DNA from: Halanaerobium sp. MA284_MarDTE_T2
GTDB taxonomy: Bacteria; Bacillota; Halanaerobiia; Halanaerobiales; Halanaerobiaceae
Direction of reading: 5' to 3'
Assembly (NCBI RefSeq): GCF_003337245.1
Contig: NZ_QPJE01000011.1
Location: forward strand, 1-64,000
DNA length: 64,000 bases
Both the position numbers and the translations under genes were made by a program. Shown one piece after another: positions 27,160 through 40,575 of the stretch (its first letter is position 1; each line of letters starts with the position of its first letter). A model generated the notes under the pieces. The model saw only the letters and a program-made list of their open reading frames with translations, was not told where the DNA came from and made no database searches.

Positions 27160-28896
27160 ATGCTGAATATAATAGCTCTGCTTGTCTTTTTTTTACTATT
27201 ATTTACTTTAATTTATTTATTTGGAGAATATATAGCCTGGATTTATAAAGATGAAACGAAAAGCAAAAGTAATTTGCCGAATAAACTGAAATTTATTAAA
27301 AAATTGGATAGGCCATTTAAGTTTGTAGAAGATAGGATATTTTCATTTTTGAATATTGATCAGAATAAAGAGATGAACTGGAAACAGTATTTATTTTCTT
27401 TACTGATCTTTAATGGAGTTTTATTTATATTTTTATTTCTGGTCTTTAAATTTCAGAACATTCTGCCTCTAAATCCGCTTAATTTAGAGGGTATGAGCTG
27501 GGATCAGGCTTTTCATACAGCCAGTACTTTTATTAGTAATACAAATCAGCAGCATTATGGTGGGGAAATATTATCATATTTTTCTCAGCTTTTTGCTGTT
27601 GGGCTGGCAATGTTTTTATCAGCAGGAACAGGTCTGGCACTTGCACCGGCTTTTACACGAGGAATTCAGAATGAAGAAGAGAGTAAACTTGGTAATTTCT
27701 ATGTAAATTTAATAAAAGGTTTAATTAGATTTTTACTGCCGGTTTCTTTTGTAGTTGCTCTACTTTTAATTTCTCAGGGTTCACCCCAGTGGTTTGGTGG
27801 TGAGATTATAGTAAATACTATTGAGGGAGTAAAACAGGCGATCAGAGTTGGACCTGTAGCTGGAATAGAAGCAATTAAGACCCTGGGTACAAATGGTGGT
27901 GGTTTTTTTGCAGCAAATGCTGCTCATCCATTTGAAAATCCAACAATTCTATCAAATATAGTGCTCAATTTAATCATGCTGGCCAGCCCGATGGCAATAA
28001 TTTATGCCTTTGGTATCTGGATAGGAAAGAGGAGACATGGGGTAATTTTAATTGGAGCGTTATTTGTAATTTTTCTTGGCTTATTCTGGGTTACAGCAGC
28101 TGGAGAAATGCAGCCAAATAGAGCTGTAACAATGGTAAAAGGAGATGTACACATAGATCAGAGTCTGGGTAATATGGAGGGAAAAGAAACACGCTTTGGC
28201 AGTCTTTTAAGTTCACTCTGGGCTATTTCCACAACTTCAACTACTAATGGAGCAGTTAACAGTATGCATAATAGTTATAATCCCCAGGGAAGTGTTGGTC
28301 CATTTCTGGCAATGGCAATGAACTGCTTATATAATGGAGTTGGAGTTGGTCTGCTTAACTTAATGACCTATATATTTATATGTGTATTTATAGCCGGTTT
28401 GATGATTGGCCGGGCTCCTCAGTACTTAGGGAAGCAAATTGAATGGCGTGAAGTTAAAATTGCAGCATTAATTATTCTTTTGCTTCCTGTTCTGGTTTTA
28501 TTTCCAACTTCTATTGCAGTGATTACTAAAGTAGGAAAAGAAGCCATTCATAACCCGGGTTTTACTGGCTTCTCAGAAGTATTATATGAGATGTTTTCAG
28601 CTGCTGCCAATAATGGTAGTGGTTTTGAAGGCTTAATGGATAATTCGGTATTTTATAACTTACTTAATGGTGGTGCAATTTTAATGGGGAGATATCTTCC
28701 CATTTTTGGTCAGCTTTTAATAGCAGGATATTTATCACAGAAAAAAATCAGACCAGAAACTGAAGGAACACTTAAAGTAGAAAATTTATCATTTTTAGTT
28801 CTATTTGTTGGTGTAATGATTATTATAGGCGGCCTAATCTTTATGCCTGCATTAGCAGTGGGACCAATTGCAGAAATGCTAAGTGGGGGGATGTAA
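27160..28896 (+). CDS. kdpA: Potassium-transporting ATPase subunit A
   Basis: 578 residues, ten membrane helices, the K+-binding channel-like subunit of the Kdp P-type ATPase. Filter-type loops are visible, for example [47 protein letters not shown] and [12 protein letters not shown]. Kdp is the high-affinity uptake system used when external K+ is scarce. AAGGAAGG precedes ATG 27160. Stop and kdpB start are two bases apart. Confidence 0.96.
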
Positions 28897-28898
28897 AG

Positions 28899-30935
28899 AT
28901 GTTTGATATAGATTGGGAACAGCAGTGGACAGCAATTAAACAGTCGTTTATCAAACTCGATCCTGGATATTTAATCAAAAACCCGGTTATGTTTGTAGTA
29001 GAACTCTGTACTATACTGACAATAATTTTGACTATTTATCCACCTCTTTTTAATGGTCAGGAACCTACCTGGTATTATCTAACAATCACATTAATTTTAG
29101 TCTTTACGCTTTTGTTTGCTAATTATGCTGAATCTCTGGCAGAACTGCAGGGTGAAGCCCATGCTGATAGTCTAAAGGCCCTACAGGTAGAGAGTGAAGG
29201 AAAAAGACTAAAAAATAAGGATATTGAATTAGATGAGATAACTGAAGCTGATTATGAGGTAGTTGCCGGAGAAGAGATAGAAAAAGGAGATTATGTCTTT
29301 GCCGAAAAAGGTGATATTATTCCTCGTGATGGAGAAGTTGTAGAAGGTAGTGCCTCTATTGACGAATCAGCAATTACAGGAGAATCAGAGCCTGTAATTA
29401 GAGAAAGTGGTGGTGACAGAAACTCTGTTACAGAGGGAACTGAAGTTTTAAGTGATGTGCTTAAAATTGAGGTTACTGCTGCTGTAGGAGAGTCATTTTT
29501 AGACAGAATGATCGATCTGGTAGAAACAGCCTCCAGACAGAAAACTCCTAATGAAATTTCAATGACTCTGATTCTAGCCAGTTTTACTTTTGTTTATCTG
29601 ACAGCAGTTGTTACTATGCGTTTTTTTGGCATGTATGTGGATATGAATGTTGATGTTGCTAATTTAATTGCTCTTTTAATTGGTTTAATGCCGACAACTA
29701 TTGGAGCTTTACTGGCCTCGATCAGAATTGCCGGGATGACCAGGGTAACTAGAGAAAATATTATTGCTAAATCAGGCAAGGCAGTTGAGTCAGCTGGTGA
29801 TCTTGATGCCCTGATTTTAGATAAAACAGGAACAATTACAACTGGAGAAAGAATAGCAGAAAAATTTATAGCAGTCGGAAGTGAGAAAAATGAGTTATAT
29901 AAAGCCTGTCTGCAGTCCTCATATTTTGATGAAACTCCAGAAGGGCGTTCAGTAGTTAATCTGGCTCATGACCTGGATGTCGAGGTAGATGAAAGTGAAC
30001 TAAAAAAAGAAAAATTCGTTGAATTTTCTGCTAAAACCAGAATGAGTGGAATTGATCTACCAGATGGAACTGAAATCAGAAAAGGTTCTGTAGAAGCAGT
30101 TAAGGAATATGCTGATAAGATTCCTGATGGTTTAACAGATAAAGCCCATGAAATTGCAGATAGTGGAGGTACTCCTCTTGCCGTAGCAGTTGATAAAAAG
30201 ATTCTTGGTTTAATTGAGCTGCAGGATGAATTAAAAATTGGTATTAAAGCCAGAATTCAGGAACTGCAGGAAATGGGAGTTAAATGTATTATGGCTACCG
30301 GTGATAACGAGAGAACTGCTCGCTATGTAGCAGAACAGGCCGGAATAGAAGAATATTATTCTGAATTTAAGCCAGAAGAAAAAATTGCTCTGGTTGAAAA
30401 AATTCAGAAATCAGGAAAGTTAATTGGCATGACCGGTGATGGGACCAATGATGCTCCTGCTTTAGCAAAAGCCGATGTGGGACTGGCCATGCAGGCCGGT
30501 ACTAATGCTGCTAAAGAAGCTGGTAATATGGTTGACCTTGATTCTGATCCAACTAAATTAATTGAGGTAGTTGCGATTGGTAAACAGCTGTTAATGACCA
30601 GAGGTTCGCTAACAACTTTCAGTATTGCCAATGATATTTCCAGATATTTTGCTCTGATACCTGCAATTTTTAGTGCCGGGATACCTGCTTTACAGCAGAT
30701 TAACTTTATGAACCTGTATTCACCACAGAGTGTAGTAATTGCATCTTTAATTTATAACTCACTGATCATCCCTTTCTTAATTCCACTGGCAATGAAGGGT
30801 GTGGATTATAAAGCGGAGAGCTCATCCAAATTACTGCGCAAGAATCTGGTTATATATGGTGGAGCCGGTCTAATTGCACCATTTATTTCTATTAAACTAA
30901 TCGATATGCTATTAGTTATGCTGGGGGTGTTTTAA
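28899..30935 (+). CDS. kdpB: Potassium-transporting ATPase ATP-binding subunit B
   Basis: 678-residue P-type ATPase. Shows the actuator motif TGES, the phosphorylation motif DKTGT (Asp near 307), the KGS nucleotide-binding element and the hinge [11 protein letters not shown]. It hydrolyses ATP to drive K+ movement through KdpA. The length is normal for KdpB. Its stop is followed at once by kdpC. Confidence 0.96.
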
Positions 30936-31505
30936 ATGAGTGTTAAAAAGAATGTAGTAACTGCAGTCAAGTTAATAGTTCTCTCACTTTTGATTTTTTC
31001 AATTATTTATCCACTATTACTGGGTGGAGTTGGACAGTTATTTGCTGATAAAGCATCAGGCAGTATAATTTATCAAAATGGAAAAGCTGTAGGCTCCAGA
31101 TTAATTGGACAAAATTTTGTCAGTGACAGCTATTTTATCTCAAGACCATCTTCAATTAATTATGATGCTTCAACTTCTGGAAGTGATAATCTGGCTGCTT
31201 CAAATCCTAAATTACAGCAGAGAATTGCAGCTGACTCAATGAAAATTAAAGTTAAATATCAGCCTGGTAATAGGGATGTACCAGTAGATTTAATTACTGA
31301 ATCTGGTTCTGCTTTAGATCCACATATCTCGCCTGAGGCAGCTTATTTTCAGGTTAGTTATCTAGTAGAACAGACAGGAATTTCTGAGTCAACCCTGAAT
31401 TCATTGATAGAAGAACATACAGAATCAAAACTGCTGGGATTATTTGGGGAAAGCAGAGTTAATGTACTGGAATTAAATCTTGCTTTAGAGGAGGTATTAG
31501 ATTAA
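30936..31505 (+). CDS. kdpC: Potassium-transporting ATPase subunit C
   Basis: 189 residues with one N-terminal helix and an extracytoplasmic domain. Family marks are YPLLLGGVGQLF, GSRLIGQNFVSDSYFISRPS and the C-terminal SALDPHISPEAA block, followed by a VNVLELNLAL ending. It acts as a catalytic chaperone of KdpB. The stop codon shares its last base with the start of the following Usp gene. Confidence 0.95.
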   Translation: MSVKKNVVTAVKLIVLSLLIFSIIYPLLLGGVGQLFADKASGSIIYQNGKAVGSRLIGQNFVSDSYFISRPSSINYDASTSGSDNLAASNPKLQQRIAADSMKIKVKYQPGNRDVPVDLITESGSALDPHISPEAAYFQVSYLVEQTGISESTLNSLIEEHTESKLLGLFGESRVNVLELNLALEEVLD

Positions 31506-32753: not shown

Positions 32754-33809
32754 ATGCAAAAATTAGAAAAAACTATTAGCCAAATTGGAATACCTAATAT
32801 TAAAAAAATGACAGAAGCTCAAAACAGATTAGATCAATTAACAAAACCTAAAGGAAGTCTGGGGAAATTAGAAAAAATGGCGGTCAAATTGGCGGGGATT
32901 TGTTCAGAACTTTATCCCAGTTTTGACAAGAAAACTCATATTGTAATGGCAGGAGATCATGGAGTTGTAGAAGAAGGAGTTAGTGCTTTTCCTCAAAAAG
33001 TAACAACTCAAATGGTAAATAATTTTTTAAATAATGGGGCTGCTATAAATGTTTTAGCAGCTGAAGTTGGTGTAGACTTAAAAATTGTAGATATGGGAAT
33101 GATAGATAATATTAATAATCAAAAATTAATAATAAAAAAAGTAAAAAATGGTACTGATAATATGGCAAAAATGGAAGCAATGTCTAAAAAAGAGGCTGTG
33201 GACTCTTTAGCAGCTGGAATTGAGATTGCAGAAAAATCTATAAAATCAGGTTCTAAAGTAATTGGTATTGGGGAAATGGGGATTGGAAATACAACAGCTA
33301 GTTCTGCAATAATCGCAGTTATAACAAAGGCGCCACTGAAGGAGATAGTAGGTTTTGGAACCGGTTTAAATCCAAAAGGATTAAAAAATAAAATAAAAGT
33401 AATAAAAAGAGCCATAAAAATCAACAATCCTGATCCAGAAGATGCAATTGATATCCTTGCAAAAATTGGAGGTTTAGAAATAGCAGGTATGGCTGGTGTT
33501 ATAATTGGAGGAGCTGCAAATAATGTGCCCGTTATTATGGATGGCTTAATTACTGGTGCTGCAGCCCTAATTGCCCAAAAACTAAAACCTGAAGTAGTTA
33601 ATTATCTTATTCCTTCTCATAAATCAGTTGAGCCAGGGCATAAAAATGTTTATAAACAACTTGGACTTAGTCCTTTTCTTGACTTAAATATGCGTTTAGG
33701 AGAAGGTACAGGGGCTGTATTGGCTATGCCATTTTTAGATAGTTCTATTAATCTAATGAAAAGTATGGCTACCTTTTCTGAAGCTGCCGTCGATAATGCA
33801 TCTGCATAG
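32754..33809 (+). CDS. cobT: Nicotinate-nucleotide:dimethylbenzimidazole phosphoribosyltransferase
   Basis: 351 residues, normal CobT length. It makes alpha-ribazole phosphate for the lower ligand of cobalamin. Landmarks are TKPKGSLGKLE, MAGDHGVVEEGVSAFPQKVT, GIGEMGIGNTT and the C-terminal MRLGEGTGAVLAMP with the catalytic Glu. ATG 32754 follows AGGGGG and the regulatory terminator. It is the only complete B12-assembly gene in the window, and in isolation suggests remodelling of imported corrinoids rather than full synthesis; other genes may lie elsewhere. Confidence 0.95.
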   Translation: MQKLEKTISQIGIPNIKKMTEAQNRLDQLTKPKGSLGKLEKMAVKLAGICSELYPSFDKKTHIVMAGDHGVVEEGVSAFPQKVTTQMVNNFLNNGAAINVLAAEVGVDLKIVDMGMIDNINNQKLIIKKVKNGTDNMAKMEAMSKKEAVDSLAAGIEIAEKSIKSGSKVIGIGEMGIGNTTASSAIIAVITKAPLKEIVGFGTGLNPKGLKNKIKVIKRAIKINNPDPEDAIDILAKIGGLEIAGMAGVIIGGAANNVPVIMDGLITGAAALIAQKLKPEVVNYLIPSHKSVEPGHKNVYKQLGLSPFLDLNMRLGEGTGAVLAMPFLDSSINLMKSMATFSEAAVDNASA

Positions 33810-33822
33810 TTTTTTTAATATA

Positions 33823-33862
33823 GTACCGGGTACAAGTGAAATAAATCACTTGTGCCCGGTAC
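33823..33862. repeat. Palindromic repeat, copy 1
   Basis: GTACCGGGTACAAGTGA faces TCACTTGTGCCCGGTAC (one mismatch) across a six-base loop. An almost identical palindrome is at 39572-39611. It lies between cobT and the PucR gene and is not followed by a clear T-run. Confidence 0.7.
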
Positions 33863-33900
33863 CATCTTCATGATAATATACATTTTATAGGAGGTGCCTT

Positions 33901-35421
33901 ATGCTGCTAAATATTGAAGATATGCTCAAATTATTTAATGGGGATTTGAAAGTAATAGCTGGAAAGAATGGATTAAGTAGAGAAGTAAGTACAGTTACTG
34001 TAATTGATGCACCGGATTTTTATAAATGGATTAATGGAAAAGAATTTATAATTTCTACTGCTTATGTTATTAGAGATGATATTGATTATTTATTGGAACT
34101 GCTTGATATAATGAATCAGAAAAATGCAGCTGGTCTTGGAATTAAAATAGACAGATATATTAAAAAAATTCCAGAAGATATTAAAAATAAAGCTGATAGA
34201 TTGAATTTTCCTATAATCTACATTCCCGATGAATTTGCATTTGCAGATATAATTAATCCTGTTTTATCAGAGGTTGTCAATCGGCAGGCTAAGAAACTAA
34301 GATATTCTGAAAAAGTTCATGAGTCTTTTACAAAATTGGTTTTGGAAGATGAGGATTTTCCAGTAATTCTTGATAATTTAGAAAAATTGATAAAAACAAA
34401 AACTGTTTTTTATGATAAATTTTCGGAACAGCTTTTTAATTCCAGAGAACTGATAAATAATACAAAAGGTATAAGTGATTTGATAGAAGAAAACTTTACT
34501 TACAAATTGATATATAAAAATAAGACATATGGTTACATTATCTTAATTGATAAGGAAGCCGATTTTGTTTTAAAAGAATATGATAAAATTGCAGTTGAAC
34601 ATGCTGCTACTGTTTTGCGGTTAAAGATTCAGCGGGAAATTTCTAATTACCAGGTGGAATTAAGATTTAGAAATGAGTTCATCCAGGATCTGATTTTTAA
34701 TAACTTCAGTTCAAAAGATGAAATAAAAGAACAGCTAAATAAATATGACTGGAAATATAATAATGATATTTTTTGTTTAATAACTAAACTGGATAAACAC
34801 TGCAGTATAACTAAAGCCAGAGATCTTGAAAGAAAATTTAAAAAAGAGTTCGGTGGCTCTGTTTTCACTCAGATTGGAAATCGATTTATTTATTTAATTG
34901 AATCAGATGGAAGCAGCGAATATATGGACCGGACTGTTAAAGACAAAATAAAGAAAATATTTTCTGATGCTTCTAATGGAAGTTTTTTTTATACAGGTAT
35001 TGGAAATGCAAGAGATAATATAGCTGATATTAATTTAAGCTATGAAGAAGCAAAAAATGCTCTAAATTTAGGTATGAATATAAAATCTGAGGAAAAAATT
35101 TATTTTTTTAATGAACTCGGCATATACAGGCTGCTGGATATTGTAATAAAAGAAGACATAGCAGAGGAATTTCTGGAAGATAATCTGGGCAAACTGATAA
35201 GATATGATAACAGTGCAAATGATAATTTGCTTGAAACATTAGAAACAATAATAGAAAATGACTGGAATTTAAAAAAGAGTTCACAGGATTTATTTATTCA
35301 TTATAATACAGCAAAATACAGGTTCAGCAAGATATGTAAAATTTTAGATTTAGATCCCGATGACTGGAATCAAAAGTTAAATCTAGCCATTTCGGTAAAA
35401 TTATTAAAAATGAATATTTAA
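33901..35421 (+). CDS. PucR-family transcriptional regulator
   Basis: 506 residues. N-terminal PucR sensor domain (1-125; VIDAPDFYKWINGKEFIISTAY), central GGDEF-like CdaR region (about 290-410) and C-terminal helix-turn-helix (about 450-500; NLKKSSQDLFIHYNTAKYRFSKICKIL). Such regulators usually activate purine, amino-acid or carbon catabolic genes in response to a metabolite. It lies upstream of, and in line with, the amidohydrolase and membrane-protein genes, which are its probable targets. GGAGG is well placed before the ATG. Confidence 0.9.
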   Translation: MLLNIEDMLKLFNGDLKVIAGKNGLSREVSTVTVIDAPDFYKWINGKEFIISTAYVIRDDIDYLLELLDIMNQKNAAGLGIKIDRYIKKIPEDIKNKADRLNFPIIYIPDEFAFADIINPVLSEVVNRQAKKLRYSEKVHESFTKLVLEDEDFPVILDNLEKLIKTKTVFYDKFSEQLFNSRELINNTKGISDLIEENFTYKLIYKNKTYGYIILIDKEADFVLKEYDKIAVEHAATVLRLKIQREISNYQVELRFRNEFIQDLIFNNFSSKDEIKEQLNKYDWKYNNDIFCLITKLDKHCSITKARDLERKFKKEFGGSVFTQIGNRFIYLIESDGSSEYMDRTVKDKIKKIFSDASNGSFFYTGIGNARDNIADINLSYEEAKNALNLGMNIKSEEKIYFFNELGIYRLLDIVIKEDIAEEFLEDNLGKLIRYDNSANDNLLETLETIIENDWNLKKSSQDLFIHYNTAKYRFSKICKILDLDPDDWNQKLNLAISVKLLKMNI

Positions 35422-35431
35422 ATCTTATACG

Positions 35432-35467
35432 AACCGTACAATCTGAGGGAACTTTTATTGTACGGTT
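35432..35467. promoter_or_regulatory. Perfect inverted repeat AACCGTACAAT
   Basis: AACCGTACAAT (35432-35442) and ATTGTACGGTT (35457-35467) form an 11-bp perfect palindrome with a 14-base spacer, after pucR and 80 bases before the amidohydrolase gene. No T-run follows. It could be a PucR operator or a weak terminator. Confidence 0.5.
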
Positions 35468-35546
35468 AGAATATATTAAATATTCAGTAAATTTGATATA
35501 ATCAATATATGATTGAAATATGATTCAAAAAAGGAGGTGAGTTAAA

Positions 35547-36770
35547 CTGAATATCAATCTTAAAAGATTAAAAAATTCACTGGAAAAAATCAATTCATTT
35601 AACAGTACTCCAGAAAAAGGAATCAGCAGACTCAGCTTCAGCAGTGAATACGAACAGTCTCTAAAATATCTAATTAGTGAAATGGAAAAATTGGATATGG
35701 GGATTTATTTTGATGAAATCGGCAATTTATTTGGTAAATATTCTAAAAATACTGAAAAAGAAGAGTCTGTAATGGTTGGTTCCCATATTGACAGTGTAAA
35801 AAATGGGGGAAGATTTGATGGAGTTGTAGGAGTAATGGGAGCACTGGAAGTAATCAGGACTATTGATAAAAATAATATTGCTCTTAAACATCCTATTGAA
35901 CTTGTTGCTTTTGTAGAAGAAGAAGGTACAACTTTTGGTTCAACTCTTCTTGGAAGCAAATTTTTTATTGATGAAATTAAGGATTTCAGCAGGTATACTG
36001 ATGATGATGGTGTTTTTATTCTGGAAAAGGCTGAGGAATTTACTATAAAAAAAGATTACAAAAAAAGAGGAAATACTCCTATAAAAGCAGTTTTAGAGAT
36101 GCATGTTGAACAGGGTAATGTACTCTATTCAGAAAATATAACGATTGGAGTTGTTACCAATATTGCTGGTGTGAACTGGCTCAGTATTGTACTAAAAGGA
36201 CAATCCAATCATGCAGGATCAACACCCATGCATCTCAGAAAAGACCCTTTTCCAACTGCCGGTTTAATTATTAATGAAGTAGAAAAAATTGCAAAAAACT
36301 GTCCGTTTTCTGATACTTTAGTAGGAACAGCCGGTTCAATTAAAGTTACTCCAAATGTAACAAATGTAATCCCTTCAGAAGTAGAAATTAATGTTGATGT
36401 TAGAGATATTTCTCAGAAAGGTATGGATTATCTTGTTACTAATCTTAAGGAATTTGCAGAAAAATTAATAGAAGACAGTGAAATAGAATTATTTATTGAT
36501 GTAGAGGAAACTGCACCTCCAATTAAACTTTCTGATAAGATTATGAATATTATTTCTGAAAAAGCTGAGAAAAGAAGTTTTGATTTTAAACATATGCACA
36601 GTGGGGCAGTACACGATTCTTCTCTTCTGGCAAAAAAATATGATGTAGGAATGATTTTTGTTCCCAGTATTGATGGTATTAGTCATGCACCAGAAGAGGC
36701 GACTGAATATGAAGATATTGAAAAAGGTGCTAATGTACTGCTGGATACTGTTTTAGAATTAAGTACTTAA
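35547..36770 (+). CDS. M20 amidase (carbamoylase/allantoate amidohydrolase family), CTG start
   Basis: About 407 residues if begun at CTG 35547, which fits the family's usual length near 410; the first ATG (35682) would remove 45 conserved-looking residues. AAGGAGGTGA (35531-35540) lies seven bases before the CTG, and a TGA at 35538 excludes an earlier start. The family hydrolyses N-carbamoyl amino acids, allantoate or ureidoglycine. Zinc-site regions are VGSHIDSVKNGGRFDG, FVEEEGTTFGSTLLGSK, LEMHVEQG and the dimer domain GQSNHAGSTPM; the closing HxxxxHD-like HMHSGAVHD is kept. It lies directly before two membrane-protein genes, its likely transport partners. Confidence 0.85.
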   Translation: MNINLKRLKNSLEKINSFNSTPEKGISRLSFSSEYEQSLKYLISEMEKLDMGIYFDEIGNLFGKYSKNTEKEESVMVGSHIDSVKNGGRFDGVVGVMGALEVIRTIDKNNIALKHPIELVAFVEEEGTTFGSTLLGSKFFIDEIKDFSRYTDDDGVFILEKAEEFTIKKDYKKRGNTPIKAVLEMHVEQGNVLYSENITIGVVTNIAGVNWLSIVLKGQSNHAGSTPMHLRKDPFPTAGLIINEVEKIAKNCPFSDTLVGTAGSIKVTPNVTNVIPSEVEINVDVRDISQKGMDYLVTNLKEFAEKLIEDSEIELFIDVEETAPPIKLSDKIMNIISEKAEKRSFDFKHMHSGAVHDSSLLAKKYDVGMIFVPSIDGISHAPEEATEYEDIEKGANVLLDTVLELST

Positions 36771-36783
36771 AAGGAGGAAAATA

Positions 36784-37479
36784 ATGGATCAAGTATTAAA
36801 AGTAGCCAATGAATGGGGAGTTTGGCTTGCGGCAGCTCCAGTTGTTATTATTGCTTTAGTTCAGGCTTTATTATATTATCGTCAGTCTATGAAGGTTGGT
36901 CAGGAGATAGGTTTAACTAAGCCGGAACTTCATAAGGCTTTTAAAACAGGTGTGGTAACATCTATCGGTCCTGTAATCGCTGTATTTATTGTCATGGTGG
37001 GTTTAATGTCAGTAATTGGTGGTCCAATGGCATGGATGAGATTATCTGTTATCGGTGCAGCTCCAACTGAATTGACTGCTGCCAGACTGGGTGCAGATGC
37101 AGCAGGGGTTGAATTTGGTGGAGATGGATATAATTTAGAAGTAATGGCAGTATCGTGGTGGAATATGATTATTAACGGTGTCGGTTGGCTCTTATTTGTA
37201 GGACTTTTTGCACATAAATTAGAAGATGTTCGGGAAAAAGTTGCCAATGGAGATTCAAGATGGCTGGGTGTGCTAAGTGGTGCAGCTATGCTTGGTGTAT
37301 TTGGTTATTTGAATGCTGATTATGTACTTTCACTGGGTGGTCCACTTGTAGCAGTTGTTGTTGGTGCATTATCAATGGTTGCTCTTCTCAAAATATCGGA
37401 AAGCTTCAGGCCAATAAAGGAATATTCACTTGGTATTGCAATGCTGTTAGGTATGTTTTTTGCTACATTATTAGGGTAA
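36784..37479 (+). CDS. DUF5058-type membrane protein
   Basis: 231 residues with about six hydrophobic segments (about 15-32, 57-78, 120-140, 155-172, 178-195, 212-230). I recognise it only as a DUF5058-like protein of unknown function. It lies 13 bases after the M20 amidase gene with AAAGGAGG before its ATG, and is followed by another polytopic membrane protein and a second amidohydrolase. The arrangement suggests the two membrane proteins form a permease for the amidohydrolase substrate. Confidence 0.7.
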   Translation: MDQVLKVANEWGVWLAAAPVVIIALVQALLYYRQSMKVGQEIGLTKPELHKAFKTGVVTSIGPVIAVFIVMVGLMSVIGGPMAWMRLSVIGAAPTELTAARLGADAAGVEFGGDGYNLEVMAVSWWNMIINGVGWLLFVGLFAHKLEDVREKVANGDSRWLGVLSGAAMLGVFGYLNADYVLSLGGPLVAVVVGALSMVALLKISESFRPIKEYSLGIAMLLGMFFATLLG

Positions 37480-37611
37480 TTAGAATTAGTACAATTTAAT
37501 CAGAAAGATATAATATTCTACTCGATAAAAACAATAGGAAATTATTAAAATCAATGATATAGAATTATAAAAATATTAAATGGTTACAGCAAATAAAAGG
37601 GGGAAAAACAA

Positions 37612-38277
37612 TTGACTGACAAGCAGTGGCACGAAGACTGGTATTTACCTGTAAAGAAAGTTGGGATGACAACACTTTTACTGGCAGCTGTATTTTCATT
37701 TCTTCCACTTGTATATTTATATTTTGCTAAAGGAATTTTACCCAATTTTACAACCTCGATTAGAGCCTGGGGTCTGGTGGCAGCTTCTTTTGGAGCTTTT
37801 TATGTAGTTGAACCGGTTTCCTATTATGCGATACTTGGACTGGCAGGGACATATTTATCATTTCTGACCGGTAATATTTCCAATCTAAGACTTCCCTGTT
37901 CTGCGATGGCTCAGGAAGTGCTGGAAGTTAAAGAAGGAACTAAGGAAGCAGAAATCGTCGGAACTCTTGGTATTACTGGTTCTGTTGTAACAAATCTTTT
38001 AGGTGTAACACTGGCAGCATTTATAGGAATGTCTATTATTGAAGTACTGCCAGATGTGGTAATACATGCATTTAGAAATTATACTGCTCCAGCTATTTTT
38101 GGAGCTGTATTTGGGCAGTTTTCTATGAAATATCCACAGCTTGCTCCGGTTGGTATCGGACTTTCTATCATATTAATTGGATTTTTTGGAGCACCAGCCT
38201 GGATAAGTATTCTGGCAGCCGTTTTTGGATCGATTTTTGTAGGTAAAGTATTATTTGATAAAGGTATTATTGACTGA
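37612..38277 (+). CDS. Polytopic membrane protein, partner of the DUF5058-type protein
   Basis: 221 residues with five or six membrane segments and a conserved-looking LTGNISNLRLPCSAMAQE loop. I do not recognise a characterised family. TTG 37612 is the likely start (AAGGGGG twelve bases upstream). A gap of 130 bases separates it from the preceding membrane-protein gene. Proximity to two M20 enzymes supports a role in uptake of an N-acylated or carbamoylated amino compound, but nothing in the sequence proves this. Confidence 0.65.
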   Translation: MTDKQWHEDWYLPVKKVGMTTLLLAAVFSFLPLVYLYFAKGILPNFTTSIRAWGLVAASFGAFYVVEPVSYYAILGLAGTYLSFLTGNISNLRLPCSAMAQEVLEVKEGTKEAEIVGTLGITGSVVTNLLGVTLAAFIGMSIIEVLPDVVIHAFRNYTAPAIFGAVFGQFSMKYPQLAPVGIGLSIILIGFFGAPAWISILAAVFGSIFVGKVLFDKGIID

Positions 38278-38336
38278 TTATATAGTTTAAAAAGAGATAA
38301 ATATCAGACGATTTTTTGGAATAGGAGTGATAAATT

Positions 38337-39530
38337 ATGAATTTTAAAAAGATGGCTTTAGATATTGAAGATCAGATAATTAAGTGGAGAAGAGATCTGC
38401 ATCAGATTCCAGAAACACAGCTTGATCTTCCCAAAACAAATGAGTATATTAGAAATGAACTGGATAAAATGGGTATAGAATATAAATCAGGTCTGGCTAA
38501 AAGTGGTATAGTGGCTACAATCTGGGCCGGAGAAGGAGATTCTAAAACATTTGCTGTAAGAACTGATATGGATGCACTTGATATTAATGAAGAAACTGGA
38601 CTGGATTTTGCCTCAACACATGAAGGGAAAATGCATGCCTGTGGTCACGATTCTCACATGGCTATGGCCTTAGGTGTTGCAAAGCTTGCCAGTGAAAACA
38701 AAGATAAGCTGGCCGGAAATGTAAAAATAATTTTCCAGCCTGCAGAGGAAGGACCTGGTGGAGCAAAACCTATGATAGAAGAAGGTGCCTTAGAAGATCC
38801 AGCAGTAGATGCTATAGTAGGTCTGCATATAGGTACTATCTTTAAAGAAGTAAAACCGGGACAGATTGGTGTTTCTAAAGGTGCAACAATGGCATGTCTG
38901 GACAGTTTTCAGATAGAAGTTGAAGGAAAAGGCGGCCATGGTGCCATGCCAAATACCACTGTTGATCCGGTTGCTGTAAGTTCATCAATAGTACAGGAGC
39001 TGCAGACACTGATCAGTAGAGAGATAAATCCTGTTAGACCGGGAGTAATAAGTGTCTGTAAGATTCATGGAGGCAGTGCCTATAATGTAATACCTGGAAA
39101 AGTAAATATGGAAGGAACAGCCCGCTTTATCCATGAAGAACAGAGGCAGCAGATTTCCAAAAGAATGGAAGAAGTGGTTAAAAAAGTAGCTGATGCCAGA
39201 AGAGCAAAGGTTAAGTTTGATTACCACTATGGATATCCACCAGTATTTAATCCAGAAGAGTTTACTGATTACTTTAAAGGAGTAGCAGAAACAGTTATGG
39301 ATGACGAAAATATTATAGAAATAAAAGAACCAGTTATGGGTGGAGAAGATATGGCATATTTCTTAAAGGAAGTGCCGGGAACATTCTTCTTTTTAGGTGG
39401 AGGCAAAGAGATTGAAGGTGAAGTGCATTCCCATCACAACTCTAAATTTGATGTTGAAGAATCAGTATTCCATCTGGGGACAGCATTAATGGCAAAAACC
39501 GCCTTTGACTGGCTTGAGAAAAATAAGTAG
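38337..39530 (+). CDS. M20D amidohydrolase (N-acyl amino acid hydrolase family)
   Basis: 397 residues, family of IAA-amino acid, hippurate and N-acetyl-diaminopimelate hydrolases. Metal-site residues are present: DMDALDI, HACGHDSHMA, FQPAEEGPGGAKPMIEEG, GLHIG and a late GGEDMAYFL with HSHHNSKFD. The dimer domain carries GKGGHGAMPNTTVDP. It cleaves an acyl group from an amino acid; the acyl acceptor is unknown. It is the last gene of the pucR-linked group, with AGGAGTGAT before the ATG. A palindromic repeat follows. Confidence 0.9.
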   Translation: MNFKKMALDIEDQIIKWRRDLHQIPETQLDLPKTNEYIRNELDKMGIEYKSGLAKSGIVATIWAGEGDSKTFAVRTDMDALDINEETGLDFASTHEGKMHACGHDSHMAMALGVAKLASENKDKLAGNVKIIFQPAEEGPGGAKPMIEEGALEDPAVDAIVGLHIGTIFKEVKPGQIGVSKGATMACLDSFQIEVEGKGGHGAMPNTTVDPVAVSSSIVQELQTLISREINPVRPGVISVCKIHGGSAYNVIPGKVNMEGTARFIHEEQRQQISKRMEEVVKKVADARRAKVKFDYHYGYPPVFNPEEFTDYFKGVAETVMDDENIIEIKEPVMGGEDMAYFLKEVPGTFFFLGGGKEIEGEVHSHHNSKFDVEESVFHLGTALMAKTAFDWLEKNK

Positions 39531-39571
39531 AGACAGCAGATAGAAAAATAAAATAGCAATATTATTAAATA

Positions 39572-39611
39572 GTACTGGGTACAAATGAAATTTTTCACTT
39601 GTGCCCGGTAC
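39572..39611. repeat. Palindromic repeat, copy 2
   Basis: GTACTGGGTACAAATGA faces TCACTTGTGCCCGGTAC across six T's. It is the second copy of the palindrome at 33823-33862, located after the M20D gene. Both copies sit at the ends of genes, so they could act as transcription stops or REP-like repeats. Confidence 0.7.
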
Positions 39612-39761
39612 TATTTCCTTTTTATGTATTCGGTACATATCTTTTTTTATACTTTTTTTAGAGGAATCCAATAAATTTAGCTGAATAAATTAAATATGTT
39701 CTATTCTGCTGGGTATTTTAAAATTTTGTCAGGATTAATTATTAATTAAAGGGGGAAGAAG

Positions 39762-40105
39762 ATGGCTATAGTCACTTTAGATGATATAAAAAATGCAAAA
39801 CAAAATTTAGAAGGTATTGCAAAAAAACCGAGCTGGACTGGTCAAGAACATTCAGCAAAATGAGTGGGAATGAGGTCTTTTTAAAGCTGGAAAATCTGCA
39901 GAGAACTGGATCATTTAAAATTCGCGGTGCATATAATAAAATGTGTAACCTGACTGAAGAGGGAAAGAAAAATGGAGTGGTGGCTGCTTCTGCAGGAAAT
40001 CATGCTCAGGTTCAGGTCACATTAGAAACAAAAAATGAAGATCATGTGAAGGATATTCTTACCACTTTAGAGAATAATAACTATAGAGTAAAAAGGACAA
40101 GATAA
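39762..40105 (+). pseudogene. Threonine dehydratase relic (frameshift and large internal deletion)
   Basis: AGGGGGAAGAAG precedes ATG 39762. The frame [16 protein letters not shown]… runs into a TGA at 39858-39860. One extra A in the A7 run at 39821-39827 would restore [39 protein letters not shown], the start of a threonine ammonia-lyase with its PLP lysine. After ASAGNHAQ (about 40007) the sequence jumps to [23 protein letters not shown], an ACT-like C-terminus, so about 280 codons are missing. A repeated CAGGT at the junction suggests deletion between short repeats. No catalytic function can remain. Confidence 0.88.
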
Positions 40106-40194
40106 GGTTAGAATCATAATATCATTTTTACCCAATCTTATTTACATTTAAAAGAGAAATATTTTAAACAAAATCAATTAGGAGGAATTTTAAA

Positions 40195-40575
40195 ATGACA
40201 AAAGAAATTATTAAAACTGATAAGGCACCAGAAGCAGTGGGAGCATATTCACAGGCAGTAAAAGCAGGAGATACAGTTTATTTATCCGGACAGATTGCTA
40301 TTGATCCGGAAACTCAAGAAATTATTGATGGTGGAGTAGAAGAACAGGCAAAAAGAGTTTTAGAAAATCTTAAGGCTGTTTTAGCAGCAGCAGATTGTAC
40401 TTTTCAGGATGTTGTCAAAGCAGAAATTTTTCTTGATGATATAAATGATTTTGGCGCAGTAAATGATATTTATGCAGAGTATTTTAAAGAAAATCCTCCT
40501 GCAAGAGCCTGTATGGAAGTAAGCAATTTGCCCAAAGGTGTTTCAGTAGAAATAGCACTTACTGCAGTAAAGTAG
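40195..40575 (+). CDS. ridA: RidA family enamine/imine deaminase
   Basis: 126 residues, almost standard RidA. Conserved GAYSQAVKAGDTVYLSGQ, the EQAKRVLENLKAVL helix, the ARACMEV arginine that binds the substrate carboxylate and VEIALTAVK at the end. RidA hydrolyses reactive 2-aminoacrylate-type intermediates released by PLP dehydratases. It lies 90 bases after the broken threonine dehydratase, its natural metabolic partner. GGAGG precedes the ATG. Confidence 0.95.
   Translation: MTKEIIKTDKAPEAVGAYSQAVKAGDTVYLSGQIAIDPETQEIIDGGVEEQAKRVLENLKAVLAAADCTFQDVVKAEIFLDDINDFGAVNDIYAEYFKENPPARACMEVSNLPKGVSVEIALTAVK

Follow-up and report, generated by a model that had tools for sequence, protein, structure and literature searches.

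A conserved DUF5058 membrane pair tied to amide hydrolases, a candidate two-protein carrier for amide-linked amino acids

In a 64,000-nucleotide stretch of Halanaerobium sp. MA284_MarDTE_T2 (contig NZ_QPJE01000011.1, positions 1 to 64,000 of the forward strand; hereafter the window), a block of five genes encodes a PucR-family regulator, a carbamoylase-type amidase, two membrane proteins and an M20D amidohydrolase. The first membrane protein belongs to the family DUF5058, and the second, here called the partner, has no family name. Comparison with relatives showed that the two membrane proteins are one evolutionary unit and that this unit is tied to amide hydrolases. With a probability of roughly 60%, the pair is a single membrane importer of N-acylated or peptide-linked amino acids that are cleaved inside the cell by M20 enzymes, with glycine as the probable product in several branches. 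Unnamed transporter families represent a large gap in genome annotation, and the pair now has a testable substrate class.

The membrane pair as one unit

The DUF5058 protein of the window matches PF16481 over the complete model (1-222 of 222; 237.2 bits vs. a gathering cut-off of 28.2) and no other Pfam family at E <= 0.001, and its partner lacks a Pfam match at this threshold and belongs to no Pfam or NCBIfam family. In an even draw of 398 genomes of the phylum, 30 exceeded the Pfam cut-off for DUF5058, and the partner was present in 30/30; the same draw contained one genome with a partner fragment in the absence of DUF5058 (G218) and two genomes with sub-threshold DUF5058 matches that lack the partner. 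At the level of individual loci, automatic detection placed the partner on the same strand and no more than 300 bp downstream in 70 of 72, and it is also adjacent in the remaining two, i.e., L082, which has a stop inside DUF5058, and L103, which has overlapping frames. DUF5058 relatives were moreover located on twelve plasmid records, ten of which were examined (two Paracoccus records were left out), and all ten loci carry the partner, decayed in some of them. Pairwise distances over 56 loci correlate with r = 0.974 between DUF5058 and the partner and with r = 0.93 to 0.94 for the comparisons with M20D, the three cassette proteins all having a common history. Residues R86 and E96 of DUF5058 are kept in 75/75 aligned relatives, and G18, G76, Y81, G87 and P95 of the partner in 70/70, accompanied by the polar residues N91 (68/70) and E67 (67/70).

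These counts have a defined scope: 48 named loci originate from a single pattern scan with the window's DUF5058 and are biased to its relatives, near copies occur among the loci (L047/L048 and L058/L059), and the neighborhood tally of the even draw comprised the window and 28 of the other 29 genomes (G291, a short contig, was omitted). Among gut Bacillota and Synergistota the pair is widespread, and it extends to haloarchaea; the search of phages gave no DUF5058 match. Around the window's genome its spread is patchy, with DUF5058 in 3/61 genomes and, within the family, in the window's genome only. Near copies of the window's operon were observed on contigs binned as Spirochaetaceae (L031), Flavobacteriales (L033) and Aenigmatarchaeota (L034); the latter two are short and may be misbinned.

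Linkage to amide hydrolases

Of the 68 loci with 2.2 kb or more of sequence beyond DUF5058, 56 have, on the same strand and no more than 2.6 kb downstream, a gene whose best-scoring profile is that of M20D. Since the background amounts to 8 M20D genes above the cut-off in the 2.47-Mb genome of the window, this linkage is more than chance. Eight of the 12 loci that lack a downstream M20D gene have a same-strand amide or peptide hydrolase directly adjacent, so that the total rises to 64/68 loci. The substitutes are an M20D gene directly upstream of the pair (L073), an M20-family gene (PRK08262-like) in the same position (L085), an upstream PepD-like M20 dipeptidase (L067; TIGR01893, 396.8 bits vs. 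343.75), an M42 peptidase (L097) and, at four loci, enzymes outside the M20 and M42 families, namely, an upstream creatininase-family protein (L077; PF02633, under the cut-off of all named NCBIfam equivalogs), a C45 Ntn-type hydrolase/acyltransferase (L081) and amidohydrolase-superfamily enzymes (L093 and L101). A PGA_cap protein of uncertain activity stands beside the pair in L091. The pair is hence tied to amide hydrolases, and the genome neighborhoods, which the preliminary description of the block had named as the place where its idea could fail, showed a conserved linkage instead (56/68 loci; 30/30 genomes). The best evidence that the pair would carry the substrate or the product of the enzyme is its constancy next to amide hydrolases that can be exchanged.

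The other two components of the window's block are accessory parts of the cassette. Within 6 kb in the 51 loci with long flanks, M20D was found in 44/51, PucR in 17/51 and the carbamoylase in 3/51, and the picture of PucR and the carbamoylase as fixed members of one pathway, drawn from the window alone, has to be given up. Over 77 loci, the carbamoylase was detected in seven (the window, L031 to L034, L037 and L046), and in the window and L031 to L034 it immediately precedes the pair; L107, a relative from the window's order, likewise has a carbamoylase-like gene (best profile among five) before the pair. N-carbamoyl compounds, one of the two substrate classes named earlier, are unsupported as a general substrate because the carbamoylase is missing from most cassettes.

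Regarding the enzymes of the window, the first ATG of the amidase gene (35682) falls within the domain and would remove its conserved beginning; the likely start is the CTG at 35547, behind the ribosome-binding site AAGGAGG, and from there NF006771 aligns with residues 2-406. The amidase exceeds the subfamily cut-off of TIGR01879 (386.9 vs. 204 bits) and the cut-off of NF006771 (421.8 vs. 399 bits) and stays below those of the substrate-specific equivalogs AllC (293.2 vs. 597.75) and ErtE (353 vs. 520). Its closest solved relative, with which an alignment was made, is the N-carbamoyl-L-amino acid hydrolase 3n5f, and the motifs GSHIDS, RFDG, VEEEG, HVEQG and GISHAPEE were found. The M20D enzyme reaches 360.1 bits with TIGR01891 (subfamily cut-off, 153.75) and remains below the CpsA carboxypeptidase equivalog NF040868 (399.6 vs. 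500); the closest solved relatives are 1xmb (IAA-amino acid hydrolase homolog), 4ewt, 1ysj (YxeP) and 6slf (N-alpha-acyl-glutamine aminoacylase). Both M20 enzymes carry motifs that we take to be those of active M20 enzymes. No signal peptide was seen by eye at the M20D starts of six loci or at that of the window, and the substrate therefore has to enter the cell.

A glycine link in relatives

An Rfam scan of 73 loci (1,011,280 bases) revealed seven glycine riboswitches (RF00504). In L068, L071 and L074, the match exceeds the gathering score, and about 80-140 bp, with a terminator-like hairpin in them, separate the end of the aptamer from DUF5058; the contig of L068 stops inside the partner, so that any hydrolase would lie beyond the contig end. 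The unconstrained fold of L068 (-38.3 kcal/mol) pairs CCAGAGU with the 5' strand of P1 and breaks the terminator, which returns when P1 is forced (-36.0 kcal/mol). This modeling favors the layout of a glycine OFF switch, a reading obtained for L068 alone, unlike L071 and L074. Assuming a density of 1 to 4 riboswitches per Mb, the total of 7 in 1.01 Mb has a P of 9e-5 to 0.12 and is weak evidence, and three riboswitches within 300 bp upstream among 73 loci have a P of 2e-7 to 1.4e-5. A model built from the seven riboswitches (R1) gave no further convincing site in 88 sources including the window (eighth match, E 0.63).

Genes for glycine cleavage, glycine-reductase-family proteins or Na:Ala/Gly symporters flank the cassette in five loci besides L068, L071 and L074. 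In L056, the riboswitch is followed by a gene for a 496-aa AGCS-like symporter (assigned by sequence; one member of the gene group matched PF01235) and then by the cassette. The riboswitch lies between M20D and genes for a GcvT-SHMT fusion, GcvH, GcvPA and GcvPB in L063 and between M20D and GrdX-GrdE-GrdB in L062 and L054, and GrdB and GrdE are encoded behind the cassette's amidohydrolase in L101; the Grd proteins of these loci could instead be of the sarcosine or betaine reductase type. A GrdB-family protein was detected in 20/30 genomes with DUF5058 vs. 101/368 others (Fisher P 2e-5, relatedness ignored); the window's genome has two GrdB-family matches, and members of its family that lack DUF5058 have them too. 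All six haloarchaeal loci, which are on plasmids, contain an M20 amidohydrolase, and three of them contain gcv genes (L157, at the edge, L159 and L163). L158 and L164 contain lpdA and lipA, neither of which is diagnostic of glycine cleavage, and a neighbor named TRIC/Gly_transporter was found in 4/6 (L158, L159, L164 and L165; PF03458 was tested for L158). In Paracoccus (L161), M20D and the pair are followed by a 3-keto-5-aminohexanoate cleavage protein and an aminotransferase, which hints at a different product.

Fourteen of the 81 DUF5058 proteins in a quick tree are glycine-linked; they comprise 7/13 of a gut clade (98% SH-aLRT), 6/6 haloarchaea and L101, and the link changes six times on the tree vs. 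a shuffled mean of 13.2, with 0/500 shuffles as low. None of the seven riboswitch loci has PucR in the stretch examined, and L064, the tree neighbor of L071, has PucR and no riboswitch, as if the two regulators were interchangeable.

A selenocysteine tRNA and genes for proteins of 475 and 635 aa were observed just upstream of the cassette in L044 (3032-7698) and L049. The two genes are probably selA and selB (one group member matched SelA), and in L044 they are followed by an aminotransferase class V gene, still upstream of the cassette. A further tie to a selenoprotein glycine reductase is possible.

Proposed function and alternatives

In the proposed mechanism, DUF5058 and the partner would jointly form a single membrane carrier importing N-acylated or peptide-linked amino acids, whose amide bond would be cut by a cytosolic M20D enzyme with release of the amino acid; in the window's lineage, the carbamoylase-type M20 amidase would also cleave an amide bond. 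The released amino acid would probably be glycine in several other branches, where glycine riboswitches would run or accompany the cassette, a place that the PucR regulator would take in the window. We infer all four elements of this scheme, i.e., transport, the inward direction, the two-protein complex and the substrate. The genomic context gives good support to a putative carrier of an undescribed kind that is linked to amide hydrolases, and an arginine-glutamate set such as R86, E96 and E67 would be compatible with a carboxylate substrate. The core of the preliminary description, a module for uptake and cleavage in which the pair is an undescribed carrier, is what we still infer, the linkage being kept; the fixed PucR/carbamoylase composition, the operator and the N-carbamoyl substrate of that scheme are lineage-specific or unsupported. 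A more detailed version is proposed tentatively, at slightly less than even odds: undescribed two-protein carriers for amide-linked amino acids, which in the gut and haloarchaeal branches serve glycine conjugates (N-acylglycines or glycyl peptides), in some cases switched off by a glycine riboswitch at high glycine supply, and which in the window's halophile branch are accompanied by two M20 enzymes and PucR. If the proposal is true, the pair, now annotated as unknown, becomes an importer of N-acyl or peptide-linked amino acids, and a harvest of glycine from conjugates is predicted for some gut bacteria. Part of the idea could be tested directly and cheaply through the glycine riboswitch.

Several observations weigh against an importer of this kind. 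The window has no glycine riboswitch (Rfam over 33500-40200; R1 over the whole window) and no gcv or grd gene, and L061 and L069, near L068, are also devoid of the riboswitch. Since the window's own six-row clade (96%) and several other clades contain no glycine-linked row, the glycine link is shown for branches around the window rather than for the window itself. Two of the 68 loci (L098 and L105) lack a hydrolase beside the pair, the partner of L075 is split and its M20D gene only found about 5 kb away, and no hydrolase was detected in the vicinity of L156 and L160, which are decayed copies on plasmids. The AlphaFold2 models of DUF5058 and the partner, calculated from 40 and 43 sequences, are weak and all-helical (pLDDT 67.4 and 73.1; pTM 0.37 and 0.54, respectively), and neither of these weak models has a Foldseek match to a solved structure at E <= 0.001.

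A pair that works outward or as an exchanger, exporting the freed amino acid or the acid half of a compound that enters elsewhere, is rather unlikely. Glycine riboswitches also turn on genes for glycine disposal (gcv and grd, ON, according to an excerpt of PMC11477304), and the haloarchaeal cassettes adjoin glycine cleavage genes, both of which would fit an exporter; however, the folding of L068 favors an OFF switch, the sense that the same excerpt reports for a glycine importer, and the window's block holds no other importer. Even less probable is a pathway for N-carbamoyl amino acids that is controlled by PucR via the palindrome behind its gene. The window does contain PucR and a carbamoylase-family amidase with intact motifs, and the position of this gene directly upstream of the pair recurs in L031 to L034, with a carbamoylase-like gene in L107, but the carbamoylase is restricted to 7/77 loci, the amidase attains no substrate equivalog model, and the palindrome is unshared, a terminator or hairpin occupying its place in relatives. 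Such a pathway may be valid for the window's lineage only.

A role of the pair as a membrane anchor, sensor or auxiliary of the hydrolase is the most improbable of the alternatives. The absence of any matching transporter family or fold speaks for it, as does the strong co-inheritance with M20D. A dedicated anchor is nevertheless ill suited, because the hydrolase is swapped for other families and the pair stays, and both proteins are largely composed of hydrophobic helices.

The layout of a carrier plus an M20D hydrolase is already known. AbgT together with AbgA/AbgB mediates the uptake and cleavage of p-aminobenzoyl-glutamate, likewise by an importer plus an M20D hydrolase, and differs in that, at E <= 0.001, Pfam gives no family other than DUF5058 for the first protein of the window's pair and none at all for the partner. 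Escherichia coli yjiH-yjiG-iadA (isoaspartyl dipeptidase) similarly places two small membrane proteins beside one amide hydrolase, but YjiH and YjiG are Gate-domain proteins without homology to the pair above reversed controls. In Clostridioides difficile, YfcC, a putative amino acid carrier, and an M20D amidohydrolase form an apparent operon behind a lysine riboswitch, as described in an excerpt of PMC11477304; YfcC is one protein of a named family, whereas neither of the two proteins of the pair belongs to a named carrier family, and the riboswitch, present here in relatives only, senses glycine instead of lysine. According to the same review, glycine riboswitches act as ON switches for gcv and probably also for grd, and as OFF switches for those AGCS symporters that have been tested. 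AGCS glycine/alanine symporters thus resemble the pair as carriers behind a glycine riboswitch, and L056 even places an AGCS-like gene between riboswitch and cassette, but they are a single-protein family, unrelated in sequence and without a hydrolase tie. In the literature searched (subscription papers and preprints were outside it), no paper contained "DUF5058" or "PF16481," and nothing on the pair was found.

Searches for remote relatives of the two membrane proteins gave the following results. VIA-align with the weak models reached at best a Z of 4.2 over 67 residues and 6.5 over 74 residues, and by sequence no solved relative of DUF5058 was found at E <= 1 and a single chance-like match for the partner (E 0.71). 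Mutual homology of DUF5058 and the partner was rejected (hhalign probability of 0.6%, about 2% with deeper alignments), and so was kinship with YjiH/YjiG, for which a faint partner-YjiH stretch scored no better in hhalign than reversed alignments. The Gate domain PF07670 was not matched by the window's two proteins and was absent from the families listed for 43 partner members (E <= 5). Weak Pfam or NCBIfam matches seen in individual partner members, such as DUF554 (0.0021) and an NMN transporter (0.066), were dropped, as they are unshared among members.

PucR and the palindrome

The PucR protein of the window is supported by PF07905 (109 bits; cut-off, 33.5), HTH_30 (57.1; cut-off, 27) and GGDEF_2 (37 bits), and no NCBIfam equivalog is above its cut-off. 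The palindrome downstream of its gene (AACCGTACAAT and ATTGTACGGTT, separated by 14 nt) was reported earlier, and its existence was corroborated: the pattern occurs at a single site in the genome, the RNA fold of the region beats 200/200 shuffles (z -5.0), and its 11-base arm compares with a longest arm of 9 in 20 simple shuffles. The additional proposal of a PucR operator found no such backing. Exact copies were absent from the other loci searched, save L001 and L108, which represent the window's own stretch, and the inverted repeats upstream in other PucR-bearing loci differ. At the corresponding place, directly 3' of pucR, an intrinsic terminator is present in Natroniella (L036) and a hairpin of 16 bp in Clostridium cadaveris (L035). 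Judged by these sequences, the palindrome is no conserved operator, and the reading as a shared operator was dropped because of its lack of occurrence elsewhere. We lean toward a 3' hairpin of the pucR mRNA rather than an operator; since a T run is missing behind the window's hairpin, both readings stay possible. A TATAAT (-10-like, noticed by eye) at 35497-35502 is absent from the list of a promoter scan, the total of which was below the shuffled mean.

Gene block of the window and its surroundings

The gene content described previously for 33901-39530 was reproduced as five plus-strand genes, with a corrected start of the amidase (Table 1). The gap between DUF5058 and the partner (37480-37611) comprises 132 bp vs. 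mostly about 10-60 bp in the relatives inspected, and nothing was recognized within it.

Table 1. Features of the gene block in the window
Feature	Position	Strand	Matches and remarks
PucR-family transcriptional regulator, 506 aa	33901..35421	+	PF07905, HTH_30, GGDEF_2 matches
Palindrome, 11-bp arms, 14-nt spacer	35432..35467	no strand	3'-end hairpin of pucR mRNA or operator
M20 hydantoinase/carbamoylase-family amidase, CTG start, accessory gene	35547..36770	+	TIGR01879, NF006771
DUF5058 membrane protein, 231 aa, first half of the pair	36784..37479	+	PF16481
Partner membrane protein without family name, 221 aa, TTG start, second half of the pair	37612..38277	+	
M20D amidohydrolase, 397 aa	38337..39530	+	TIGR01891

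Upstream of the block, the window carries genes of a Kdp potassium-ATPase (27160-31502; KdpA, E1-E2 ATPase and KdpC). Downstream, a remnant of a threonine dehydratase gene (ilvA/tdcB; 39763-40105) consists of the gene start, a frame change and a PLP-domain fragment, of which an 81-aa frame matches PF00291 at residues 3-50, and is followed by an intact RidA gene (40195-40575).

In relatives, a calcineurin-like metallophosphoesterase follows M20D in the related group L086, L087 and L099 (PF00149 for L086 and L099; L087 by length alone), and PGA_cap proteins are found at this position in L091 and L100. Decayed copies of the pair were observed on plasmids of Vibrio (L156), where DUF5058 is broken and surrounded by insertion sequences, and of Paenarthrobacter (L160). 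In the window, near-identical hairpins (CACTTGTGCCCGGTAC and its complement) flank the block at 33823-33862 and 39572-39611; their 16-base pattern has 14 matches in the genome with at most 2 mismatches and therefore represents a dispersed intergenic repeat.

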